Shown here piece after piece: positions 2,786 to 52,934 of a stretch of DNA of 64,000 bases (its first letter is position 1; the number at the start of each line of letters is the position of its first letter). Source of the DNA: Natronobiforma cellulositropha (GTDB lineage: Archaea; Halobacteriota; Halobacteria; Halobacteriales; Natrialbaceae); assembly GCF_025629245.1 (NCBI RefSeq), contig NZ_JANZXN010000030.1:178856-242855 (forward strand), given 5' to 3'. Both the position numbers and the translations under genes were made by a program. Under the pieces are notes generated by a model that searched no databases, was not told the origin of the DNA, and saw only the letters and a program-made list of their open reading frames with translations.

Positions 2786-3968
2786 AGGCGACGTCACCTC
2801 GTTCGGGAGCCGGCGTGTCGATCGGGCGGAGGGTCGAGTCCGCGAGCGACGAGGAGCCGGCATCTGCGGCGATGTCAGCGTGGATACAGGCGACCCGGTG
2901 GCTCGAGTCGGTCGCGACCGGCTCGAGTTCGGGGTCGGTTGCCGTACACTCGTCGGTCGCCGCCGGACAGCGCGGGGCGAACGAACAGCCGGGCGGCATC
3001 TCGTGGGCGAGCAGGTTCGGAACGTTGCCGGGGATGGGTGTGATCGGCGCGTTCGGGTCGTCGAAGGTCGGCAGTGAGCCGAGCAGCCCCTCGGTGTAGG
3101 GGTTGGCCGGGTGGTCGAAGACGCGGTCGGTCGGGCCGACTTCGACGAACTCGCCGGCGTACATGACGGCCGTCCGGTCGGCAATGTCGGCGACGACGCC
3201 GAGGTTGTGGGTGATGAGGAGGATGCTGGCTCCGGTGTCGATCCGGAGTTCGTCCAGCAGTTCGATGATGCCGGCCTGGATCGTCACGTCGAGTCCGGTC
3301 GTCGGTTCGTCGGCGATCAGGACCGTGGGATCGGCGGCGAGCGCCTGGGCGATCATCGCCCGCTGGAGCATCCCGCCGCTGAACTGGTGTGGATACTCGT
3401 CGGCGCGGGCGGCCGGGTCGGGAATGTCGACGCGCTCGAGTAAGTCGACCGCTCGCTCGAAGCTCTCGGGGGAGACGAACGAGGAGGCGGGTGAGAGGAC
3501 GTCACGGAGCAAGTTCGAGAGACCGTAGGTTTCACCGCGGGCGAGGCGTGCGTTACACTCGACCGCCTCGGCGATCTGTTCGCCGACGGTCAGCGAGGGG
3601 TTGAACGCGGCACCCGGGTCCTGGAAGATCATGCCGAACTCGGTGCCACAGAGCGACCGGCGAACCGCTGGTGAGACGGCGCGGACGTCGACGAAGTCGC
3701 CGTCGACGGCGTCCGGGTGGTCGGTGAGGTCGGCGGCGAGTTCCGGCGAGTGGAACCACAGTTCGCCGTCGACGATCGCACCCGGTGGTTCGATCAGGTC
3801 CATCAGGGAGCGGCCGGTGACGCTCTTGCCGCTGCCGCTCTCACCGACGACCGCGAGGACCTCGCCCCCGTAGAGGTCGAAGCTGACTCCGGAGACGGCG
3901 TTGACCTGTCCGGCGTCGGTGAAAAACCGGGTCGTGAGGTCACGGACAGAGATGATGCTCTCAGTCAT
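2778..3968 (-). CDS. Dipeptide/oligopeptide ABC transporter ATP-binding protein, DppD/OppD type
   Basis: The 396-residue ATPase is the second nucleotide-binding subunit of the importer. Walker A GESGSGKS lies at residues 42-49, the Q-loop GMIFQDPGAAFNP in the middle, the signature FSGGMLQRAMIAQAL follows, Walker B is VLIADEPTTGLD, and the C-terminal oligo_HPY region contains PGCSFAPRCP. Inserts of about 30 residues before the Q-loop and in the helical domain lengthen it relative to bacterial homologues. Its ATG overlaps the end of the permease gene by 4 bp. Confidence 0.93.
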   Translation of the reverse strand: MTESIISVRDLTTRFFTDAGQVNAVSGVSFDLYGGEVLAVVGESGSGKSVTGRSLMDLIEPPGAIVDGELWFHSPELAADLTDHPDAVDGDFVDVRAVSPAVRRSLCGTEFGMIFQDPGAAFNPSLTVGEQIAEAVECNARLARGETYGLSNLLRDVLSPASSFVSPESFERAVDLLERVDIPDPAARADEYPHQFSGGMLQRAMIAQALAADPTVLIADEPTTGLDVTIQAGIIELLDELRIDTGASILLITHNLGVVADIADRTAVMYAGEFVEVGPTDRVFDHPANPYTEGLLGSLPTFDDPNAPITPIPGNVPNLLAHEMPPGCSFAPRCPAATDECTATDPELEPVATDSSHRVACIHADIAADAGSSSLADSTLRPIDTPAPERGDVAYE

Positions 3969-4966
3969 AGCCCACCCCGCTGGATACCCGGGTCGAGGGC
4001 GTCCCTGAGGAGGTCACCGAGGAGGTTGATGCCGACGACGGTGACGACGATGAACAGGCCAGGGACCGTCGACAGCCACCAGGAGGTGGCGAGGTAGTCC
4101 CTGCCCGCGGCGATGTCGTAGCCCCAGGAGAGGGTCGTCCCGGAGAAGCCGAGAAACGAGAGCGAACTCTCGATGATGATGATCGAGGCCACCTGGATCG
4201 TCGCCAGCACCAGAATCGGCGTGATCGAGTTCGGGAGGACGTGTTTCCTGATGATACCCAGATTGCTCATCCCCATCGTTCGCGCCGCCATCACGTACTC
4301 TTCGTTCTTGGCAGCGATGGCCTCACCACGGGCGACGCGGGCGATCCACACCCAGACGACACTCGAGATGGCGAGGGTGATCGTAACCGGGATGACGGCG
4401 TGTGTCGGCCGGTCGGAGACCAGGCCACTGGCGACCAGCGGGTCGGGGACGGTGACGGTGATGTTCCCGAGGATGCCGATCATCGCGAGGGTTATCAAGA
4501 GGGCGGGGAACGCGAGGACGATGTCGACGAAGCGCATCAGCACGGAGTCGGTTCGTCCGGCGTAGTAGCCGGAGACCATGCCGACGGTCGTTCCAACGAC
4601 GAGGGAGACGGCCATCGCGCTGAACGCGACGATGATCGAGGTGCGTGCCCCGTAGATGGTGCGCGAGAGGACGTCACGCCCGTTGCTGTCGGTGCCGAGC
4701 GGGTGGGCGAGCGTGCCGGCGTTCGATTCGGTGACCGTCCGAATCTCGCCGTCGATCATCCGGGTCGTCTCCGACTCCTCACCGCCGAAAAAGAGCGGTG
4801 GCTGGTGGTTTCGAGAGCTATCCTGGTCGGTCGGGTCGTGGGGAGCGAGCACCGGGGCGAAGACGGCCATGAGCAACATACTCAGGAGTAACGCGACACC
4901 GATCGTCGCGACCGTGTTCGACCTGATCTCTCGCTCGAGGGACGTCCGAGTTCTATCAGATATCAT
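3965..4966 (-). CDS. Dipeptide/oligopeptide ABC transporter permease, DppC/OppC type
   Basis: The 333-residue inner-membrane permease has an N-terminal transmembrane segment (near residues 20-40, ending MAVFAPVLAPHDP), the DppC hallmark GTDSNGRDVLSRTIYGAR, and the EAA-loop-like segment ARTMGMSNLGIIRKHVLPN that contacts the ATPase. The start was set at the ATG at 4966, which makes a 4-bp ATGA overlap with the upstream permease. The extra residues of the longer frame are the other gene read out of frame. Confidence 0.93.
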   Translation of the reverse strand: MISDRTRTSLEREIRSNTVATIGVALLLSMLLMAVFAPVLAPHDPTDQDSSRNHQPPLFFGGEESETTRMIDGEIRTVTESNAGTLAHPLGTDSNGRDVLSRTIYGARTSIIVAFSAMAVSLVVGTTVGMVSGYYAGRTDSVLMRFVDIVLAFPALLITLAMIGILGNITVTVPDPLVASGLVSDRPTHAVIPVTITLAISSVVWVWIARVARGEAIAAKNEEYVMAARTMGMSNLGIIRKHVLPNSITPILVLATIQVASIIIIESSLSFLGFSGTTLSWGYDIAAGRDYLATSWWLSTVPGLFIVVTVVGINLLGDLLRDALDPGIQRGGL

Positions 4967-13341: not shown

Positions 13342-15390
13342 GTGACCGAGGAACGCGACGTCCCCACACAGGCGGGTGAGGAGACGCCACAGACGGACGA
13401 CGCAGCGACCGTCGAGGAGGAAGGCGAAGACGGCACGAGCGGTGAGCACAGCGGAGACAGTTCGGAAGGTGCAGACCGTTCGGACGGTTCAGACAGTGTG
13501 GAAAGTGTAGACGGTGGAGACCGTTCAGACGGATCCGGGAGCGCTGACGGCGCGGCCGACTCGAGCGACGTGGAGGGCGAAGCCGGGAGCAACGGCGGGG
13601 AGACGTTCTCTCTCGCAACGTTTCACGACTGCTGTCAGCAGGAGGGGCGGCCCGTCCTCACCGCGGCGACGGTCGCCCGTGTCCTCGAGTGTAGCCAGGA
13701 AACGGCGACCGGCCACCTCGAGCGCCTCGCCGAGACGGGTGCGCTCGAGCGCCTGTCGGTGTCGGCCGACCCGGTCGTCTGGTTCCCGAGCGAACTCGAG
13801 GACCTCACCGAGCGCGAGCGCGTGGTCGTCTTCCCCAAACGCAGAGAGATCGTCGTCGACCAGCCGAGCCAGTTTACGCGGGCACAGCTCACCCAGTTCG
13901 CCCACCAGGCCGACGCCACCGGCGACGGGGGCTACCGCTACGTCGTCAGACCCGAGGACGTCTGGCAAGCGCCCCACTCGACGTTCGAAGGACTCGAGCG
14001 GACGGTACGCCAGGCGCTCGGCGAGCGCTCTGCGGCGCTCGAGGCGTGGATCGAGAGCCAGTGGGACCGCGCCCAGCAGTTCCGTCTCTACACCCACCCC
14101 GACGAGTACACCGTGCTCGAGGGACGGACGCCGGAGGTGATGGGGAACGTCGCCCGCCAGAAACTCGACGAGGAGCACGTCCACGCACCGATCTCCGAGA
14201 CCGAAGACTGGGTCAGAGAGGGTGCGGAGGCGGCGATCAAACGGCTCCTCTACGAGGCGGGCTACCCCGTCCGCGACGAGCGTGACCTCGAGGGTGGTGA
14301 CGAACTCGCAGTCGAACTCGAGGTGAACTTACGCGAGTACCAGCGGACGTGGGTCGAGCGGTTCGAAGCGACCGGCCAGGGCGTCTTCGTCGGCCCACCC
14401 GGCAGCGGGAAGACGGTCGCCGCGATGGCGGCGATCGAAGCGGTCGGCGGCGAGACGCTGATCCTCGTCCCGAGCCGTGACCTCGCCCGCCAGTGGCAGG
14501 AGGCGCTGCTCGAGCACACCAGCCTCGAGCCGGCACAGGTCGGCCAGTACCACGGCGGCGTCAAGCAGGTCCGGCCGGTGACCGTCGCGACCTACCAGAT
14601 CGCCGGAATGGACCGCCACCGGTCGCTGTTCGACGACCGCGAGTGGGGACTCGTGATCTTCGACGAGGTCCACCACGTCCCGAGCGACGTCTACCGGCGC
14701 AGCACCCACTTACAGTCGCGCCACCGCCTGGGGCTGACCGCCAGCGCCATCAGGGAAGACGACCGCCAGGAAGAGATCTTCACGCTCGTCGGGCCGCCGA
14801 TCGGCACCGACTGGGCGGCGCTGTTCGAGGCGGGGTTCGTCGCCGAACCGGAACTCGAGATCCGGTACGTCCCCTGGGACGACGAGGCGGCGGACGAGTA
14901 CGCCGCCACCGAGGGCAGAGAACGCTATCAGGTCGCCGCGAGCAACCGCCGAAAGCTCGAGGAGATCCGCTACCTGCTCGCCTCGCACCCGACGGCGAAG
15001 GCGCTGGTCTTCGTCGAGTACCTCGAGCAGGGCCAGGAGATCGCCGACGCCCTCGACGTGCCGTTTCTCAGCGGGGAGACGCCACACCACCGCAGACAGG
15101 CGCTGCTCGAGGAGTTCCGCCGTGACGAGCGTGACGTGCTCGTCATCTCGCGGATCGGTGACGAAGGGCTGGACCTCCCGACGGCAGAGGTCGCGATCGT
15201 CGCCTCGGGACTCGGCGGCTCGCGACGCCAGGGAACCCAGCGGGCGGGGCGCACGATGCGGCCGACGGGCGGGGCACTCGTCTACGTCCTCGCGACGCGT
15301 GGCACCCGCGAAGAGGAGTTCGCCCGGCGACAGCTCCAGCACCTCGGGCGGCAGGGGATCACCGTAACCGAGCGAACCGTCGACCGCTGA
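13342..15390 (+). CDS. XPB-like superfamily 2 DNA helicase
   Basis: The 682-residue ATP-dependent DNA translocase has a GTG start. Residues 1-90 are a low-complexity Asp/Ser/Gly/Glu linker. A winged-helix-like region (LATFHDCCQQEGRPVLTAA) and a damage-recognition-type region follow. The SF2 core has Walker A GPPGSGKT near 352-359, Walker B DEVHH near 440, motif III LTAS, RIGDEGLDLP and motif VI QRAGRTMRP near 632. Archaeal XPB works in nucleotide excision repair and transcription. Part of the N-terminal linker is coded by a 9-bp DNA repeat also found next to parA. The GTG at 13342 is the only sensible start before the acidic tail. Confidence 0.92.
   Translation: MTEERDVPTQAGEETPQTDDAATVEEEGEDGTSGEHSGDSSEGADRSDGSDSVESVDGGDRSDGSGSADGAADSSDVEGEAGSNGGETFSLATFHDCCQQEGRPVLTAATVARVLECSQETATGHLERLAETGALERLSVSADPVVWFPSELEDLTERERVVVFPKRREIVVDQPSQFTRAQLTQFAHQADATGDGGYRYVVRPEDVWQAPHSTFEGLERTVRQALGERSAALEAWIESQWDRAQQFRLYTHPDEYTVLEGRTPEVMGNVARQKLDEEHVHAPISETEDWVREGAEAAIKRLLYEAGYPVRDERDLEGGDELAVELEVNLREYQRTWVERFEATGQGVFVGPPGSGKTVAAMAAIEAVGGETLILVPSRDLARQWQEALLEHTSLEPAQVGQYHGGVKQVRPVTVATYQIAGMDRHRSLFDDREWGLVIFDEVHHVPSDVYRRSTHLQSRHRLGLTASAIREDDRQEEIFTLVGPPIGTDWAALFEAGFVAEPELEIRYVPWDDEAADEYAATEGRERYQVAASNRRKLEEIRYLLASHPTAKALVFVEYLEQGQEIADALDVPFLSGETPHHRRQALLEEFRRDERDVLVISRIGDEGLDLPTAEVAIVASGLGGSRRQGTQRAGRTMRPTGGALVYVLATRGTREEEFARRQLQHLGRQGITVTERTVDR
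13442..13540 (+). repeat. Degenerate 9-bp repeats inside the helicase linker
   Basis: Eleven in-phase 9-mers such as GTGCAGACC, GTTCGGACG, GTTCAGACA, GTGTGGAAA, GTGTAGACG, GTGGAGACC and GTTCAGACG encode the Asp/Ser/Gly-rich linker (SDG, SDS, VES, VDG units). The unit matches that of the non-coding array at 17521-18660. Confidence 0.75.
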
Positions 15391-16240: not shown

Positions 16241-16642
16241 TCAGTCGTCGCGCTCGGTTCGGATCTCCTCGACGAGTCCGTCGGTATCCGCGGCGGCCAG
16301 CCGGAATACAGCGTCGTAGAACTCCCGACCAGTGAGGTCTCGCACGTCGTGGTTGGTCCGCAGCTGTGCGTCGACGAGCACGCGCGCGTCCTCGAGTGCG
16401 TCGAGGGTCTCCTGGCGGACGTAGACCGTCTTCTTCGTCGTCTCGTCGAAAGCGAACGCCGAGGGGTCAGACGGTTCGGGTTCGGTCTCCGGTTCCGAAC
16501 TCGCACCGTCAGTATCAGCTTCGGTCGAAGACTCGGGTGCGTCCGTCTCGTCGTACTCGACGGCTGCCGACGCTGGCTCTTCGTCCGCTGGTTCGTCGTC
16601 GACGGCCTCGCTCAGGCCCGCAAACCGGTTGTCATCGGGCAT
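16241..16642 (-). CDS. Small acidic partner protein of ParA, possible centromere adaptor
   Basis: The 133-residue protein has an acidic low-complexity half (residues 10-70, rich in Glu, Asp, Ser) followed by a folded C-terminal domain starting TTKKTVYVRQETLDALEDAR, whose strand-helix pattern resembles ribbon-helix-helix or other partition-adaptor folds. Its ATG overlaps the end of parA by 11 bp, so it is the second gene of a parA operon. In plasmid partition loci this position is held by the DNA-binding ParB-type protein. The DNA-binding role is inference; no canonical ParB motif is present. Confidence 0.72.
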   Translation of the reverse strand: MPDDNRFAGLSEAVDDEPADEEPASAAVEYDETDAPESSTEADTDGASSEPETEPEPSDPSAFAFDETTKKTVYVRQETLDALEDARVLVDAQLRTNHDVRDLTGREFYDAVFRLAAADTDGLVEEIRTERDD

Positions 16643-17462
16643 CGTCGACACCTCCTCGTTCGACGATGGCTGCGAGTTCGTCGAGTCGCTCGAGCATGTC
16701 GCTCTCGGGGTCGTGGACCGCGAGCGGGACACCCTCGCGCCAGGCACGGCGGAAGGCGATGCGCTCGCGCAGACCCGGTCCCGGCGAGTCGGGGTCGTCG
16801 AAGTGCGCAGAGCGGGCGAACGACGGGAGAAACTGGCCGAACTCGGACGTTTCGAGGTCGCCGATGATCCGCTTCTCCTCGTTGTCACCAGCCAGCGAGT
16901 TGGGGACGATGGCGAGAATCTCGAGGTCGATCTCCTTGCGGATCGGCAGGATCTGCTGGGTGTACATCCGCTCGAAGCCGCTGACGCTCGGCTCGCTCAT
17001 CCGCAACGGCACGATGACGTGCTGGGTCGAAATGAGCGAGGCGTCGGCGAGCGGCCCGAGGTTCGGCGGCGAGTCGACGACGACGAAGTCGTAGGCGTCC
17101 TCGAGCAGCGGGTCGACGATCTCGTTTCGGATCCAGAGCTCACCGAAGGTGGCGCTCCGAATACTGTTCTCGACGCTATCTAAGTCCTGGTTGGCCGGGA
17201 GGACGTCGAAGGAGTCGGCCGACCGGATTACGTCTCCCGCCGTCACATCACTGTTGTCGTCCAGAATGTGACCGAGGTGCGTATCACTCCGGTAGGCGTC
17301 GGCGAGACCGACGCCTTCGGTCGCGTTCCCCTGCTGGTCCAGGTCGACGAGCAAGACGTCGTGGCCGCGGTTGGCGAGGCGTTCGGCGAGGTTGATCGCG
17401 AGGGTCGTCTTGCCAACGCCGCCTTTCTGTAAGGCAACGCTGACGGCACGTGCTGTTGTCAT
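16632..17462 (-). CDS. parA: ParA/Soj-family partition ATPase
   Basis: The 276-residue deviant-Walker ATPase has Walker A KGGVGKTT at residues 13-20, DLDQQGNATEGVG (switch I region), VVDSPPNLGPL (Walker B/switch II) and LRMSEPSVSGFERM. It drives DNA or cargo segregation by ATP-dependent DNA binding. The start was set at the ATG at 17462 (MTTARAVSVALQ); the longer frame lacks family resemblance. Downstream it overlaps the small partner gene. Immediately upstream lies more than 1 kb of 9-bp repeats, a possible centromere. Confidence 0.93.
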   Translation of the reverse strand: MTTARAVSVALQKGGVGKTTLAINLAERLANRGHDVLLVDLDQQGNATEGVGLADAYRSDTHLGHILDDNSDVTAGDVIRSADSFDVLPANQDLDSVENSIRSATFGELWIRNEIVDPLLEDAYDFVVVDSPPNLGPLADASLISTQHVIVPLRMSEPSVSGFERMYTQQILPIRKEIDLEILAIVPNSLAGDNEEKRIIGDLETSEFGQFLPSFARSAHFDDPDSPGPGLRERIAFRRAWREGVPLAVHDPESDMLERLDELAAIVERGGVDDAR

Positions 17463-17520
17463 GGGTTGTGAGCGGTCGTTCGCCGCGGGTCGACTCGAGT
17501 GGACGATCCCGTCACACACG

Positions 17521-18660
17521 GTGTGGAACGTCTACACTGTTCAGACAGTGTGAAAAGTGTGGACGGTGGTGAACGTCGGGACTGTGCAGGCCGCCCACTG
17601 GTAGGTTCACGGGCCACCTGGCTGTCAGAGGTGGAGAGGAAAAACGGTGAGAACTGTGCAGGCAGCGCGAACGGTCGACGAGGTGTACACCGTGGGGAAT
17701 GTGCAAGGCGTTCATACGGTCTGAGAAGTGCGCGCCGTGGTGGCTGTTCGAACAGCGTGAGAAGGGAAGCACGCATCGACGGTATGCGCCGTGCGCGACG
17801 TGCGGACCGCGTACGAGCGGTGTACAGTCCAGACAGCGTACACAGTGTACACAGCGCACACAGTGTGAACAGTGCAGTAGCGGAGTCGGCAACCAGCTGG
17901 CACCAGGGTCGACGGTATCTACGAGACATTGTACACAGTGTGGACGGTTTTGTGTGCTCGAGTGGATTCGACGGCGAATTCCAGGCGAACTCATTCACGC
18001 ACACGACTTAACAGTGGCGGAACTGTTCAGACGTCCAACACAGTGCGGGCGGTTGAGAGGGTCTGGACTGTGTGAACGGTGTAGACTGTGTAGGCGGTGA
18101 GAGATGCGAGGTGAGAGAATGTGGAGGGCGTCCAGACGGTCAGCGCATCTGAGGCGGTGCGAGCGGTGCAGACGGCACAAGGAGTGTAGACAGGGCGGAC
18201 CGTTGAGACAGTGTGGACGGTTGGGACGGTGTGAACTGTGTGAGCTTCGCGCGCCGTGTGGACAGCAACGTCGAGCAGTGCTCGAGCGAGAACAGCCACA
18301 TTCGGTAGTAGCGCACACAGCTCGAGCACCCCCCCCCCCCCACAGTGTAGACGGTTTACACTGTGTGGGAAGTGTACACAGCCAGAGCGGGGAGAACCGT
18401 CCAGACAGTGTGTGGGATTGAGGGTGTTCGGGAAGTGCACGCAGTGAGCAGAGTGTACACCGTGTAGGATGTGTGCGATTTACAAGAAGTGCGCGAAGTG
18501 TACAAAGTGTGGACCGCGTGGGACGTGTGCACGGTTGGTCCGTGTGTGGAGAACGAAGCGGCGGTTCGGCAATGGCGTTTCGACAGTTTAGGCGGTTGAG
18601 ACAGTGTGCACAGTGTACACAGTGTATACCGTCTGCACGTGGTGGAATGTACACGCGGTC
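17521..18660. repeat. Long degenerate 9-bp tandem repeat array upstream of parA
   Basis: From the parA promoter side outward the DNA reads as 9-mers of the form GTGNNNACN (for example GTGTGGAAC, GTTCAGACA, GTGTGAAAA, GTGTGGACG; near 17820-17876 GTCCAGACA, GCGTACACA, GTGTACACA, GCGCACACA, GTGTGAACA). Phase is kept for hundreds of bases with occasional indels. Many copies contain the palindrome GTGTACAC. A run of 13 C lies at 18329-18341. Reading frames in it translate to period-three nonsense (VYTVYAVWTVH) on either strand, so I treat it as non-coding. It fills the spacer between parA and the HerA-type gene. Confidence 0.85.
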
Positions 18661-18817
18661 CAGGTGCAATGCACGTGCGGGCCAGCTACCACATCCGCTC
18701 GAGACACCCGTCCCAGAGAACGGCGGTTCGTAGCCGTTTGCTGTCACGAATATTGAAGGGGTGGGACTAGTAGTGTAATGTAATGGTTACCTCTCGAGCA
18801 GCCGAGGTGAGACGCAC

Positions 18818-20524
18818 GTGAGTGAACACCGTGAAATCGTCGTCGGCGAGACTTCCCACGGCATCGACGTGACGCTGCCGGTCGTCCAGTTGCTGACCGG
18901 ACGTGGCTTCGTCACTGGGAAGTCCGGCAGCGGGAAGTCGAACACCGCTTCGGTGATCGCCGAAGAACTCCTCGAGGCGGGCTATCCGCTGCTCGTCGTC
19001 GACACCGACGGAGAGTACTACGGGCTGAAAGAGGAGTACGAGATGCTCCACGCGGGCGCGGACGAAGAGTGTGACATCCAGATCGGTCCCGAGCACGCAG
19101 AGCAGATGGCCTCGCTCGCACTCGAGGAGAACGTCCCCGTCATCCTCGACGTCTCCGGCTATCTGGACGAGGAGGTCGCAGACGAACTCTTACGCGAGAC
19201 CGCCCGACAGCTGTTCGTCAAGGAGAAGAAACTCAAGAAGCCGTTCTTGCTCGTCGTCGAGGAGGTCCACGAGTACATCCCCGAGGGCGGTGGCGTCGGC
19301 GAGACCGGCAAGATGTTGATCAAGATCGGCAAACGCGGGCGGAAACACGGTCTCGGTATCCTCGGCATCAGCCAGCGCCCCGCCGACGTGAAGAAGGACT
19401 TCATCACACAGGCGAACTGGCTCGTCTGGCACCGCCTCACCTGGGAGAACGATACGAACGTCGTCGGGCGGATCATCGACACCGAGTACGCCGAACTCGT
19501 CTCCGAACTCGGCGACGGCCAGGCGTTCATCCAGACCGACTGGACGGACGTCGGCGTCAGAAAGATCCAGTTCAGGCGAAAGCGAACCTTCGACGCCGGT
19601 GCCACGCCGGGACTCGACGACTTCGAACGGCCGGAGCTGAAATCGGTCTCCGAGGCGCTGGTCGGCGACCTCCAGCACATCACCGAGCGGAAACAGCGCG
19701 AGGAAGACCGCATCGAGAAACTCGAGCGACGCGTCGAACAGCGCGAGGAGCGAATCGAATCGCTCGAGGGCGAACTCGCCTCCGCGCGCGACGTCTCGGA
19801 GGCCGCCCGCCAGATGGCCGATGCGCTGAGTCGCCCGGAGACGGTACAGGCGGAGCTACCAGCCTCGAGCGACGAACTCCGACGGCTGCACGAGGAACTG
19901 GTCGAGATCGAATCGAAACGCACCGATCTCCAGGTACGACTCACGGAGAAAGACCGGCGAATCGAGGAACTCGAGGACGAAAACGAGACGCTTCGTCGAC
20001 GGGTTCACGGACTCGAGCACCGCCTCGAGCGCTCGGTCGAGATGGAAGCGGACGAGGGAGACGACGAACCAGCGGCGGCCGACGAAGACGACGGGGAGAC
20101 GCCGATTCTGGTCGGCGAGGACGAACGGCTCTACGGCTACACACCGGTCGACTGGGAGGACGACGACGCGCGCGAGGTCGCGACCGACCTGCTCGTCGCG
20201 AGCGACGCCGACGAACTCGACGAGTTGCTCACCATGCCGGCCGTCCACGACCGCCTCGAGCGCGCGTGTGACAACTCCCGGTGCCGTGAGGAGACCGCGC
20301 GCCGAGCGGTCGCCATCTTGCTCAGGGAGGGACCGCTCCGAACGGAGGCGCTCGCCGACCGTCTCGAGCGCTCGACGGTGGCCGTCCAGAGTCTCGTCTC
20401 CGAGCTGCGGACGGAGACGGTACTCCACCGCACCGACGGCGGCGCGTACGCGGTCCACGACGACATCATCGCGGTGCTCTCGAGTGCGCCGGGCGTCGGT
20501 GGAGTGGGTTCGGCGACGAAGTGA
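18818..20524 (+). CDS. HerA/DUF87-type ATPase with coiled coil and C-terminal winged helix
   Basis: The 568-residue protein has a GTG start. The N-terminal HerA-like barrel is short; Walker A GKSGSGKSN is at 34-42, the Walker B segment FLLVVEEVHEY near 142-152, and the arginine-rich GKRGRKHGLGILGISQRP motif follows. Long coiled coils run at about 287-325 and 352-410, then an acidic linker, then a winged-helix-like tail (about 480-555, with LREGPLRTEALADRLERSTVAVQSL). HerA proteins translocate DNA in end resection with NurA, but no nurA is adjacent; haloarchaeal paralogues of this kind are of unknown role. The stop codon runs into a GGAGA repeat. Confidence 0.88.
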   Translation: MSEHREIVVGETSHGIDVTLPVVQLLTGRGFVTGKSGSGKSNTASVIAEELLEAGYPLLVVDTDGEYYGLKEEYEMLHAGADEECDIQIGPEHAEQMASLALEENVPVILDVSGYLDEEVADELLRETARQLFVKEKKLKKPFLLVVEEVHEYIPEGGGVGETGKMLIKIGKRGRKHGLGILGISQRPADVKKDFITQANWLVWHRLTWENDTNVVGRIIDTEYAELVSELGDGQAFIQTDWTDVGVRKIQFRRKRTFDAGATPGLDDFERPELKSVSEALVGDLQHITERKQREEDRIEKLERRVEQREERIESLEGELASARDVSEAARQMADALSRPETVQAELPASSDELRRLHEELVEIESKRTDLQVRLTEKDRRIEELEDENETLRRRVHGLEHRLERSVEMEADEGDDEPAAADEDDGETPILVGEDERLYGYTPVDWEDDDAREVATDLLVASDADELDELLTMPAVHDRLERACDNSRCREETARRAVAILLREGPLRTEALADRLERSTVAVQSLVSELRTETVLHRTDGGAYAVHDDIIAVLSSAPGVGGVGSATK

Positions 20525-36439: not shown

Positions 36440-37672
36440 ATGAACCGTCGACGATTCCTCAGCGGAACCTGCATCGTGGGAGGAGTTTCGCTCACAGGCT
36501 GTCTCGAGCGCCTTGGGTTCGAGGAGGAGTCTGCCTGGAGGGACCCGCCGCTGGTCGAGGACCGACCGAGTGCAGTCTACCTTCCCGCGTCGACTGAGGA
36601 GATGGGTACGTACGGTACTGCCACCGACGGCGAGTACGCCGTCTCGCTCTCCTATACGTTTCCCCACCGGTTCTGGACCGTCGCTGGAACCGAAACGAAC
36701 CGTGTCGTCGTCGAGCCAGAAGATACACTCCACCTGATGTGTACCGTCTGGGACCCGGTGACGGACACCGTCCTTCCGGTGGACATGAGCCTCGAACTAC
36801 TGCGAGACGGGGAGCTGGTGACCTCGGCGACGCTCTGGGCGATGCTCTCACAGCGAATGGGATTTCACTACGGGGAAAACGTCTCGCTCCCCGGCGAAGG
36901 AGCGTACACCGCACGGATTCGTGTTGGACCACTCGATGCACGCCCGACCGGCGAACTCGAGGGACGGTTCGAGAGCGCGAGCACGCTCGAGATCGACTTC
37001 GAATACCAGCGGTCAGACATTCACGAACTCGAGTTCGAACTGATCGACCACGACCGACGAGGAACGCGTGATGCGCTAGAACTGATGGACCACGGTGATC
37101 ATCACGGCAGCCACGACGGTCACGACAGTCACGACAGTCACGATGGCCACGACAACGGTGACGATGGCTACGACCACGGTCACAGTGACCACGGCAGCCA
37201 CGATGGGCACAATGACCAGGGGGACCATCAGGGCCAGGGAAGCCATCGAGGAGGTTCACTCGGACACCCACCAGCCTCTCGAGGGGCGGCGGTCGACGAT
37301 CTCCAGGGAACGATACTCGGCTCGGCCCGTAGCGCTGACGCGTACGTTACCGTGCTCGAGACGGATCTCGAGCGGTTCGTCTCGAGCGGTGACGAGACGT
37401 ATCTCGCAGTGTTCACACGAACGCCGTACAACGACGTCATCCTCCCGTTGACGTCCCTGACTGTGAGACTCGAACGTGGTGGAGATGGTACAGAAACGAC
37501 GGCGGTCGAGACGCTCGACCACGAATTTGGACACCACTACGGAGTCACGCTCGAACGGCTCGAGTCCGGAGACCGGCTGACGATCTCGATAGAGGCACCG
37601 CCCCAAATCGCTCGGCACGACGGGTACGAAACAGCGTTTTTCGAGTTCGACGAGATCGAAATCGGTGTGTGA
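36440..37672 (+). CDS. Tat-exported metal-binding lipoprotein, Tp34/P19-like with His/Asp-rich linker
   Basis: This 410-residue protein has a Tat signal (RRRFLSG at residues 3-9) and lipobox LTGC near 18-21, so it is predicted to be anchored outside the membrane. The N-terminal domain (about 45-175) includes HYGENVSLPGEGAYTARIRVG, the signature of Tp34/P19 iron-binding periplasmic proteins. Residues about 215-270 are a His/Asp/Gly linker of HDGHDS units. A second beta-rich domain (about 285-405) has YLAVFTRTPYNDVILPLTSL and GHHYGVTLERLESGD. It likely binds iron or copper at the cell surface. It sits between two groups of origin boxes, and one box lies about 40-60 bp upstream of its ATG. Confidence 0.82.
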   Translation: MNRRRFLSGTCIVGGVSLTGCLERLGFEEESAWRDPPLVEDRPSAVYLPASTEEMGTYGTATDGEYAVSLSYTFPHRFWTVAGTETNRVVVEPEDTLHLMCTVWDPVTDTVLPVDMSLELLRDGELVTSATLWAMLSQRMGFHYGENVSLPGEGAYTARIRVGPLDARPTGELEGRFESASTLEIDFEYQRSDIHELEFELIDHDRRGTRDALELMDHGDHHGSHDGHDSHDSHDGHDNGDDGYDHGHSDHGSHDGHNDQGDHQGQGSHRGGSLGHPPASRGAAVDDLQGTILGSARSADAYVTVLETDLERFVSSGDETYLAVFTRTPYNDVILPLTSLTVRLERGGDGTETTAVETLDHEFGHHYGVTLERLESGDRLTISIEAPPQIARHDGYETAFFEFDEIEIGV

Positions 37673-38403: not shown

Positions 38404-38560
38404 CTCCTCCCCGCTCCTCCCCGCTCCTCCCCGCTCTTGTCCCCCTCTCCCTTCTGCTCCCTCCCGCTCTTGTCCCCCTCTCCCTTCTGCTCCCTCCCGC
38501 TCTTGTCCCCCTCTCCCTTCTGCTCCCTCCCGCTCTTGTCCCCCCCCCTCTCCCCTCCTT
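38404..38560. repeat. Polypyrimidine minisatellite in the origin region
   Basis: Three copies of CTCCTCCCCG (from 38404) lead into three exact 33-bp units at 38434-38466, 38467-38499 and 38500-38532 (each starting CTCTTGTCCCCCTCTCCC), then a partial fourth running into C8. The plus strand is almost wholly C/T over about 180 bp (38395-38580), so the minus strand is G/A-rich. Translated frames are repeats without any protein features. Confidence 0.9.
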
Positions 38561-38662: not shown

Positions 38663-38820
38663 ACACCACGTTTCCGGTGAACGAAAACCCCCGTTTCAAC
38701 TGCACCCCACCCACCCCCTCACCCCATTTCACCGGAAACCTCGTGTGTGTGTGCTAGCTATATTTTTTGACACGAACTCCCCTCCGAAACAGTAAGACCT
38801 ATTCACCGGAAACGTGGTGT
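38663..38820. repeat. Initiator-proximal origin boxes (one reverse, two forward)
   Basis: Reverse ACACCACGTTTCCGGTGAAC (38663-38682), forward TTTCACCGGAAACCTCGTGT (38727-38746) and forward ATTCACCGGAAACGTGGTGT (38801-38820). The last ends 9 bp before the orc1/cdc6 ATG. A TATA-like GCTATATTTTTT lies at 38757-38768 between the two forward boxes, so both flank the likely orc promoter. Confidence 0.85.
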
Positions 38821-38829
38821 CTATACCGT

Positions 38830-40035
38830 ATGCCGAGCACCGGGGACGACCTCTTCACTCGAGAGGACCCAATCTTCGAGAACAAAGAACTCCTCGAGAT
38901 CAACCACTTGCCCGAGGAAGGCCGGATCGTCGGCCGTGACGACGAGATTTCGAATCTCGCGAACGCAGTCAACCCGGCGATCTTCGGGCAGAGTCCGAGT
39001 AACCTGCTGATCTACGGGAAGACGGGCACGGGTAAGTCCCTCTGTGCGAAACACATCTCGGCGCGACTCGTCCGCGTCGCAAAAGAGGAAGGCGTCACGG
39101 CGGAGTTCGCCTACGTCGATTGTGCACAGGACAACACTGAAACCCAGGCGGTGCAGACGATTGCGGACTCGCTGAACGATCCCGAGCGGACGAACATCAA
39201 AATCCCTGATAAGGGTCTCAGTACGTCGACGTACTACAAACGACTCTGGAAGGTGCTCGACTCGCTGTACGACGTCGTCTTGATCATCCTCGACGAGGTC
39301 GACAAACTCGACGACGACGACATCCTGATGCAACTCTCGCGCGCGGGTGAAGCGGGAAAGCTCACACAGTGTAAGATCGGCGTCATTGGGATCAGCAACA
39401 AGATCAAGTACAAAGACCGGATGGACGAGCGGGTCAAATCGAGCCTCTGTGAACGCGAGTTCGTCTTTCCGCCGTACGATGCGAACCAGCTTCGTGACAT
39501 CATGGACGCCCGTAGCGACGCCTTCAAAGATTCCGTCCTCATGCCCTCCGTGATTCCACGCGCGGCCGCCCTCGCCGCTCGAGAGCACGGGGACGCTCGG
39601 AAGGCGATCGACATTCTCCGTTACGCTGGCGAGATCGCCCAGTCGACCGGCAGCCAGACCGTTCGCGAGGAGTTCGTCGTCCAGGCGCGCGAACGCGCCG
39701 AAACCGACCGGTTTCGTGAACTCATCCGCGGCTCGACACCTCACTCCCGGTACGTCCTCCAGGCGCTCGCGGTCCTCTCGCTCAACACGGCCGACGAGGA
39801 CGGCTTTCGAACGACGAAGATCTACGACGTCTACGAGGAGATCTGTCGTCAGGAGGGGTCTGACACGCTCTCCCTCCGGCGCGTTCGCGACCTCCTCAAA
39901 GAACATGCCTTCCTCGACATCATCGAACAGTCGCGCCAGAGCGGCGGCAGCGCCGAAGGTAGCTACACCGAACACCAGTTACTCGAGGACCCCGACGTCG
40001 TCCGCAAAGTGCTCGTCGAGACAGTCGAACCGTAA
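38830..40035 (+). CDS. orc1/cdc6: Orc1/Cdc6 replication initiator protein
   Basis: The 401-residue AAA+ initiator starts FTREDPIFENKELLEINHLPEEGRIVGRD (in part). Walker A is GKTGTGKS near 63-70, Walker B VVLIILDEVDKLDD near 152-163, sensor 1 KIGVIGISNKIKYKDR, then the initiator-specific motif; sensor 2 is EHGDARKAIDILRYAGE; the C-terminal winged helix (about 305-400) includes LRRVRDLLKEHAFLDII. It binds origin boxes and loads MCM. Start set at the ATG at 38830: the longer frame would translate an origin box. Haloarchaea carry many paralogues, each tied to its own box; which one this is cannot be told. Confidence 0.96.
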   Translation: MPSTGDDLFTREDPIFENKELLEINHLPEEGRIVGRDDEISNLANAVNPAIFGQSPSNLLIYGKTGTGKSLCAKHISARLVRVAKEEGVTAEFAYVDCAQDNTETQAVQTIADSLNDPERTNIKIPDKGLSTSTYYKRLWKVLDSLYDVVLIILDEVDKLDDDDILMQLSRAGEAGKLTQCKIGVIGISNKIKYKDRMDERVKSSLCEREFVFPPYDANQLRDIMDARSDAFKDSVLMPSVIPRAAALAAREHGDARKAIDILRYAGEIAQSTGSQTVREEFVVQARERAETDRFRELIRGSTPHSRYVLQALAVLSLNTADEDGFRTTKIYDVYEEICRQEGSDTLSLRRVRDLLKEHAFLDIIEQSRQSGGSAEGSYTEHQLLEDPDVVRKVLVETVEP

Positions 40036-48728: not shown

Positions 48729-49136
48729 ATCCATCGACTGCAGCGGGTTCGTCTTTCCACCGCGTCACGATCGACGTGACGGCGGCTGAGACTGCCCGTA
48801 TATTATGCTATCGAATAAGATTATCATCCTGTAGTCCCTAGCCGGACCTGCCTTCGTCGTTGGAGGCAGGCTCTGAAAGCGAGGGGTCTCCATTCGAGAC
48901 ACCACCTACCACCCCCTCGCCACGGAGCTACGAACACGCTCGAGGAAACTCCTCGAACCACCAGCGACTGCTACTTTCACACCGACCTGTACAATACTAT
49001 TGCCAAAACATTTCGGTATATTGGCGGTTCGTCGCTGCTTTTACACCGTTTGCACTGTCTACACATGTTCGACCGCCTGGGCGTCCGGACTCCCCGGTTC
49101 GAGGAGAGCGTCCTGGCCACCCACACGAGCACGCCG

Positions 49137-50923: not shown

Positions 50924-50956
50924 ACGTTCCCAGACCGCTGCGTTCATCACCTCTCC

Positions 50957-51118
<162 letters not shown>

Positions 51119-51122
51119 TCGC

Positions 51123-52934
51123 TCACCAGTTCTCGAACACGCCGCCGAGGGTCCCGAGGGCTGCGTGTCGCTCGAGCAGTGCCGCGGCGCGGTCGTAGCC
51201 TGACACGCTCGCACGGCTGCCGTTGCCGTCGCCCTCGTCGCGAACAGTGCGCCGGCGGGACCGTTCGACACCCGCTCGAGCGAACACCGTCTCGAGAAAC
51301 GCCTCGCGGACGTTCTCGTTGTCGAAGACGCCGTGGAGGTAGGTTCCGAGCACGTTCCCGCGGGCGGCGCTTCCGACACCGAGTGGCCGCGCGATCGGTT
51401 CTCCCTCGAGCGCGCTCGTCCGGCCGGTGTGAATCTCGTAGCCCGATGCCTGCCCGCTCGCACCGGCGATGATGCCCGCCCCTTCGACCGTCACCGTCGT
51501 CTGTGCGACGTGTTTCGTCGCCTCGAACCGCGTCTCGACGGGGAGGAGACCCAGTCCGGACACCGTATCCGGTGTCTCGCCCGTTCCCTCGAGTGGCGCG
51601 TTCGTGAGCCGTTCACCGAGTAGCTGGTAGCCGCCACAGAGGCCGACGATCGGTCCATCGAAGGTGCGAACGCCCTCCCAGAGACCCGACCGCCTGAGTG
51701 CCCGACAGTCGTCGACCGTGTTCTTCGTTCCCGGGATGACCAGCGCGTCCGCGCGCTCGAGCGCTGCCTTCGCTTCGTCACTTCCCTCATCCGTCGTCGC
51801 CCTCGCTTCGCCACTCGCTGCCCGGTTCCCGCTCTCGCCGTTCGTTTCACCACCGGATCCCCGGTTCTCGTCCTCGCTACCGACCCACGTAGCCGCCTCG
51901 GGCACGGGTACGTACTCGAGTCTGATCCCCGGTTCTTCGGCGAGCACCTCGAGATCGGTCGCGTTCGAGATTCGGGGGAGTCTGAGCACCGCAACCGTCA
52001 CCGACTGGGACGCCGGGACGCCGTCGTCCGCTCCGGTGGTCGCGCGCGTTCCAGGGCCGGGGAGTGAGACGCTGTCCTCCGCCGGCAGTCCGGGATCGTC
52101 GTACGGGAGGACACCCAGGATCGGGACGCCGGTTCGCGCTTCGATCGCCTCGATGCCGGGCTCGAGCAGCGACGGGTCGCCTCTGAACTTCGTGATCAGC
52201 GCACCGACGACCCGGTCGCGAACGTCCGCCGGGAGCAACTCGAGGGTGCCGTAGAGGCTCGCGAACGCGCCGCCGCGCTCGATGTCGACGAGGAGCAGAA
52301 TCTCGGCGTCGGCGAACCGCGCCGTCTCGACGTTCGCGAGGTCCCGCTCGTGGAGGTTGATCTCGGCGATCGATCCCGCTCCCTCCGCGACGACGACGTC
52401 GGTCCCACGCTCGAGTCGGGCGTGTGATTCCCGCGCGGCCGCACGAGCACGTTCCCAGTGTTCTTCGTAGTACGACCCGGCCGAGAACGTACCGACGGCC
52501 CGCCCGTGGACGATCAGTTGACTCTCGCCGTCGCCGTGGGGCTTGAGCAGCACGGGGTTCGTGTCCGTCGTCGGGGTGACTCGCGCTGCGCGCGCCTGGA
52601 CGAACTGAGAGACACCGATCTCGCCCCACTCGTCGCCTACTCCCTCGCCCTCTTCGTGGTCTCCGCTCTCGTCCTCGCTCTCACCTCCGCGACCGGCCGT
52701 CGCCTCCGGACGGACGACCACGCGGGCGTTGTTGCTCATGTTCTGGGCTTTGAACGGGGCGACGGCGACGCCACGGTCTGCGAGCGCCCGACAGAGACCC
52801 GCGGCGACCGTCGACTTTCCGACGTGACTCGCTGTTCCCGCGACGAGAATCGTTCGCGCACTCGAGTCGGCCGTTCGTTCGTTCACATCGCCCGTCCGGT
52901 CGCTCGGGGCTGTCCGTTGCTCGCGCCCAGTCAT
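51123..52934 (-). CDS. cobQ/cbiP: Cobyric acid synthase (adenosylcobyric acid a,c-amide amidase)
   Basis: The 603-residue enzyme uses glutamine and ATP to amidate adenosylcobyrinic acid diamide side chains. N-terminal P-loop [10 protein letters not shown] at 33-42 and [11 protein letters not shown] are diagnostic; the C-terminal type I amidotransferase has the nucleophile in [16 protein letters not shown] and the base in [11 protein letters not shown]. Acidic insertions (about 75-95 and 350-395) enlarge it over the bacterial length of about 500. It is near cob(I)alamin adenosyltransferase (56.1 kb), so the two probably serve adenosylcobalamin formation or salvage. Confidence 0.95.

Follow-up and report, generated by a model that had tools for sequence, protein, structure and literature searches.

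The window, that is, the whole 64-kb stretch of DNA analysed here, lies on a 270,905-bp contig (C24) which represents 7% of the genome and whose circularity was not shown. Around xpb, parA and herA, which encode an XPB-type helicase, a ParA ATPase and a HerA-like ATPase, respectively, C24 resembles pHTUR04 and its kin. In finished genomes, orthologous ParA proteins (84-90% identity) are encoded by plasmids or chromids of 130 to 402 kb, found in Halomontanus, Natrononativus, Natronorubrum, Haloterrigena, Halosolutus and Halostagnicola. The contig also carries its own initiator gene (Table 1). Directly before this gene, at 38404-38551, 33-bp and 10-bp tandem repeats occur in DNA of low GC content, and the cumulative GC skew reaches its maximum at about 38 kb. 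This region is probably the replication origin of the C24 replicon.

The product of parA meets the deviant Walker A criterion of the ParA family, as judged from its translation and from its Pfam, PHROG and PDB relatives, and it also matches NCBIfam ParA_partition at a score below the cut-off. Two further features expected of a ParA-based partition locus are present, namely a partner gene in operon with parA, here an overlapping gene, and a cis site of repeated motifs near parA. The partner protein has an N-terminal MPDDNRFAGL motif, an acidic linker and a conserved C-terminal domain of ca. 75 amino acids. Across its family the linker is very variable in length, the C-terminal domain of ca. 75 residues is conserved, and the N-terminus keeps an F-x-x-L motif, which reads NRFAGL in the partner studied here and NPFDDL or DPFADL in distant family members.

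No convincing match to the partner was found in Pfam, PDB or PHROG, and it could not be placed in a known DNA-binding family. In particular, no Pfam match to the N-terminal CTPase domain and helix-turn-helix of ParB, as in Spo0J-like ParABS systems, was obtained. By eye, its C-terminal domain resembles a ribbon-helix-helix (RHH) protein, with the strand KKTVYVR followed by two helices. The helices predicted at residues 77-95 and 105-132 are in an RHH-compatible order, but the AlphaFold model is of low confidence (pLDDT 61 for the whole protein and 51 for the C-terminal domain). A comparison of the partner profile with the RHH proteins of the same genome failed (probability 0.4%) and a Foldseek search with the low-confidence model returned no match. 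The RHH fold is not confirmed and was not assigned to the partner. Searches of viral contigs for the partner and for ParA yielded no useful relatives.

Table 1. Features of the parA region and of related sites in the window.
Feature	Coordinates	Strand	Evidence or remark
Satellite array copy within the XPB-type helicase gene (13342-15390, +), in the part coding for its acidic, Ser/Asp-rich N-terminus	13428..13532	.	Best-scoring array match genome-wide
Partner gene, 133 aa, overlapping the parA stop; proposed centromere-binding protein (binding inferred)	16241..16642	-	Overlap and conservation in ParA loci
parA, 276-aa Walker-type ParA ATPase with KGGVGKTT P-loop, without N-terminal DNA-binding extension	16632..17462	-	Pfam AAA_31 3.5e-36; PHROG ParA-like 1.3e-42; PDB Soj/ParA 3e-22, delta' 4e-10
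Main 9-bp array; degenerate palindromic units of consensus R S A C N G T S Y; proposed parS	17500..18690	.	Autocorrelation, phase model, unit count versus shuffles, conservation only in parA-bearing relatives
HerA-like (DUF87) ATPase gene bordering the array; synteny anchor	18818..20524	+	Present with or without parA and array
Orc1/Cdc6 initiator gene	38767..40035	+	On the same contig; the replicon has its own initiator
Short satellite array outside the main spacer	49040..49084	.	Array-model search

The 9-bp array between parA and the HerA-like gene

A spacer of 1355 bp separates the divergently oriented parA and HerA-like genes. At lags of 9, 18 and 27, identity within 17501-18690 was 0.42, 0.42 and 0.40, respectively, compared to 0.21-0.33 at neighbouring lags. 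In the rest of the 64-kb window the identity at lag 9 was only 0.308, equal to that of every multiple of 3, i.e. the period-3 level of coding DNA. The autocorrelation check proposed in the first-pass annotation (0.42 in the array against a background of 0.31) thus confirmed that the array is periodic. Of all 300-bp segments of the 64 kb, the three with the strongest lag-9 signal fell within the array (z 6.0-8.1), and the fourth strongest was 13430-13729. A 9-state phase model gained 239 nats over composition in the array versus 32-75 nats in six random segments, and it required only 8 phase jumps across 1190 bp.

The same annotation had described over 100 consecutive 9-mers. This stands as far as phase is concerned, with 143 complete in-phase units in the spacer; it does not stand as an uninterrupted run, as the array is broken, for instance near 17590-17640, 17880-17930 and 18270-18340 (this third gap contains a C tract), and only 72 of the 143 units keep at least 3 of the 4 core bases. 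In shuffled sequences, this number averaged 17 and never exceeded 27. The centres of the units with at least 3 core bases span 17520 to 18742 and become sparse past 18660, and many units match the consensus poorly. The C run itself, at 18328-18341, lies between two phase blocks.

The 9-bp unit is best represented by R-S-A-C-N-G-T-S-Y, a palindrome with N at its centre. The unit initially proposed, GTGNNNACN, is identical to the array unit read in another register, the symmetric form being nnACnGTny, and the palindrome GTGTACAC, first reported as frequent, was found only 5 times. When the unit was fitted to each replicon separately, nnACnGTny, symmetric about the central N, was recovered in nearly all orthologous spacers and in the Haloferax plasmids. 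A pooled matrix of about 2200 units reads R-C-A-C-N-G-T-S-Y and is near its own reverse complement. The array of pNRC100 is built of a 9-bp unit different from the ACNGT type of Natrialbaceae and Haloferax; at positions 3700-3985 of this locus (L163), ctattcnnn units run in one orientation and then, nearer parA, in the opposite one (gaatag).

A search with four copies of the exact pattern GTGNNNAC gave no match because the array is degenerate, and BLAST with the array DNA gave no convincing match other than the array itself and the xpb copy. A loose search for four ACNGT units with 2 mismatches was noisy and also caught 9-periodic coding sequence elsewhere; its high counts came mostly from parA-bearing genomes. 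Other repeats in the window include a 9-bp tandem repeat, TCACGACAG, at 37102-37154 within a long ORF (36440-37672, +), which is unrelated to the array unit, and a CT-rich microsatellite with a 73-bp higher-order repeat at 50951-51124.

Distribution of the array across loci and replicons

The first survey covered 56 loci around the HerA-like gene, 11 with parA and 45 without, the parA-partner pair lying between xpb and herA in some loci and being absent from others. All loci with parA show 9-bp periodicity in the parA-proximal spacer, whereas those without it have a strongly negative log-odds score in the xpb-herA gap. A 90-bp array model gave 163 matches in these 56 loci, all in the parA-proximal spacer of the 11 parA-bearing ones and none in the other 45. 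Since some of the model sequences were drawn from herA loci, part of the 163 matches arises by construction; the absence from the 45 loci does not. The HerA-like gene is not thought to be part of the partition system.

The second survey comprised 36 haloarchaeal ParA loci (39-100% ParA identity), most of which display 9-bp periodicity just upstream of parA. The lag-9 excess averaged 0.121 upstream of parA versus 0.038 downstream of the partner gene (Wilcoxon p 7e-7), and of the periods from 5 to 30, period 9 ranked first on the upstream side of parA in almost every replicon scanned. As the loci of both surveys are not phylogenetically independent, p-values are only indicative. Some of the strongest arrays are those of Haloferax gibbonsii pHG2, H. 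mediterranei pHME505, H. alexandrinus and Halobacterium pNRC100, and the array stretch beside haloarchaeal parA genes measures 0.3-1.7 kb.

Nearly all loci surveyed have a recognisable partner gene at the stop of parA, usually with an overlap of 4, 8 or 11 nt; five lack it. Neither partner nor array accompanies four ParAs of a clade with 50-54% identity and one degraded parA. The four (L214-L217, in genomes G018, G013, G023 and G028), two of which are on chromosome-size contigs, probably have a different function. The degraded gene is that of Natrialba magadii pNMAG01 (L162), a 378-kb replicon which lacks the partner gene and has little 9-bp periodicity at this locus, and which we interpret as bearing a decayed partition locus. 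The array signal was weak in three loci that have a gene at the partner position (L158, L211 and L212).

In the genome under study, every match of the array model below E 0.15 is on C24. Beyond the main array, satellites are found at C24 positions 25091, 151218, 192302 (inside xpb) and 227895 (window position 49040). A random scatter of arrays through the genome, which would have refuted the original proposal, was therefore not observed, the arrays being confined to C24. In seven relatives, about 10 places outside the main spacer lie on the parA replicon and two lie elsewhere (G034:C4:136074 and G004:C10:8621); those parA replicons whose size is known account for only about 3-6% of their genomes. 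The possibility that an N-terminal array is a conserved feature of xpb was rejected, as the xpb genes of relatives have none and the copy is specific to this genome. The xpb copy at 13428-13532 may be a satellite site that was captured, or the repeat may have been used there by chance as a linker.

A putative centromere and its alternatives

The array is very probably the centromere (parS) of a partition system made of ParA and a small partner, serving this secondary replicon, although binding and partition are themselves inferred. One reason is that the array occurs only with that ParA and the small partner gene. It is a cis element that follows parA and its partner rather than herA or xpb, is bound to the replicon, is palindromic, keeps its phase and is constrained, which together correspond to the anatomy of a partition centromere located upstream of a type Ib-like operon of parA and partner. 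Among the options initially put forward for the array, the partition centromere is thus strongly favoured, since the array tracks parA and partner and not their neighbours, on plasmid-type replicons. No support was obtained for a boundary element.

If the array is a centromere, the 133-aa partner would be expected to bind the palindromic 9-bp boxes, probably as one dimer per box, and to do so cooperatively along a contiguous run of ca. 100 degenerate boxes, which would give rise to a large nucleoprotein complex. Its conserved N-terminal NRFAGL tail may contact ParA, and control of the ATPase by the partner is likewise an inference. ParA in its ATP form, on nucleoid DNA, would then pull or position the partner-array complex so that sister replicons separate, while the short satellite arrays of the replicon could serve as auxiliary binding sites. 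Against the centromere stand the lack of any binding or stability data and the polyploidy of haloarchaea, in which active partition is not obviously needed. Further weak points are the partner's lack of a match to known DNA-binding families and its low-confidence structure models, the weak arrays of three partner-bearing loci, the many units that fit the consensus poorly and the off-replicon satellites of two relatives.

The array could instead be an operator only, where the partner would coat the promoter region of the parA operon and so repress it, with no part in partition. This is improbable, as about 1 kb and ca. 100 boxes far exceed what an operator needs, satellites lie kilobases away with one of them inside a coding region, and the gene pair consists of ParA and a partner rather than of a plain regulator. 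The array is nevertheless directly upstream of parA, and the parS sites of pSM19035 overlap promoters (PMC9499535), so that autoregulation is likely as a second function.

A part in the replication origin, as initiator-binding repeats or as an unwinding element, could be suspected from the Orc1/Cdc6 gene in the same window and from the orc1 gene that lies beyond parA and its partner in Haloferax plasmids. The initiator gene and the skew peak of the window are, however, about 20 kb away and have repeats of their own, and elsewhere the array tracks parA and partner in contexts without an adjoining orc1. We consider this reading very unlikely.

The 9-bp tandem period and some short near-perfect runs, such as ACAGTGTAC x 2.9, might also point to a neutral or expanding minisatellite produced by replication slippage, another of the options first offered. 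Neighbouring units of the window, however, resemble each other hardly more than do those at a distance of over 40 units (0.40 vs 0.37; 0.28 vs 0.26 at the centre base), the spacers of different genera diverge and yet retain the palindrome, and the array is absent where parA is absent. The core bases are moreover constrained. In six non-overlapping pairs of related spacers, the substitution rate was 0.170 at the 4 core positions versus 0.232 at the other 5 (p 1e-4, whichever member of the pair sets the phase). The effect is moderate and the sites are not fully independent; its direction is the one that constraint on a binding site would predict. A minisatellite origin is therefore hardly tenable. 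Finally, the array could hardly be a degenerate coding region for an acidic protein of low complexity: long open frames do cross it, a 9-bp period corresponds to whole codons and the xpb copy is read as a Ser/Asp-rich linker, but any stop-poor 9-bp period is expected to give open frames, the unit is palindromic, and the phase jumps break the frame, which leaves this reading next to no credit.

Relation to known partition systems

By what means the many large plasmids and chromids of haloarchaea are inherited is an open question. The module of ParA, partner and array extends across haloarchaeal families and is present in laboratory organisms, among them Halobacterium salinarum NRC-1 (pNRC100) and Haloferax mediterranei (pHME505), which makes active partition directly testable. 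The array also provides a sequence handle for plasmid-versus-chromosome calls, incompatibility typing and stable vectors, and its degenerate, phase-locked boxes raise the biophysical question of how a protein can recognise phase rather more than sequence. Neither this array nor any haloarchaeal ParA centromere was found described in the open-access library searched; most subscription papers and preprints were outside this search and a prior description is not excluded. A wider proposal, which could equally well hold or fail, is that the secondary replicons of haloarchaea have in common a class of centromere not yet described, made of about a kilobase of highly degenerate, phase-keeping 9-bp palindromes coated by a new partner family unrelated to ParB, ParG, omega and SegB. 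The box sequence would diverge between replicon groups (ACNGT versus pNRC100 type), possibly setting plasmid incompatibility.

Bacterial type Ib loci (ParF/ParG) have a short ParA without N-terminal helix-turn-helix, a small partner gene downstream and a centromere upstream of parA. The present locus shares the short ParA, the downstream partner and the upstream position of the proposed centromere; it differs in that bacterial centromeres are short, in its partner family and in its archaeal host. On the secondary replicons of Deinococcus radiodurans, arrays of direct repeats upstream of parAB are reported to act in maintenance (PMC7671480), a similar placement of repeats on secondary replicons, although with a bacterial parAB system.

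SegAB of Sulfolobales likewise consists of an archaeal ParA-type ATPase and a small DNA-binding partner, whose gene lies downstream and overlaps that of the ATPase, with palindromic sites upstream of segA (PMC5120986, PMC12284271), DNA binding by the partner described here being inferred. SegB, however, recognises isolated 13-bp palindromes (TCTAGASTCTAGA) dispersed over the chromosome, whereas the array consists of tandem 9-bp boxes at one locus on secondary replicons; its nnACnGTny unit does not meet the criterion of a 13-bp TCTAGASTCTAGA-type palindrome.

In the delta/omega system of pSM19035, parS is formed by contiguous 7-bp WATCACW repeats, at least 4 unbroken repeats being needed to activate ParA (PMC9499535). 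The upstream period of 9 does not satisfy this site definition, the unit is a 9-bp palindrome rather than a non-palindromic 7-mer, the units are about 10 times more numerous and much more degenerate, and the partner has no detectable sequence relation to RHH proteins. Both systems nevertheless combine ParA and a small partner with contiguous short repeats without spacers, at several sites per plasmid and upstream of the par genes (PMC9499535), and delta' is among the PDB relatives of the ParA studied here. By this analogy, we infer that the array may work most like the contiguous repeats of pSM19035.
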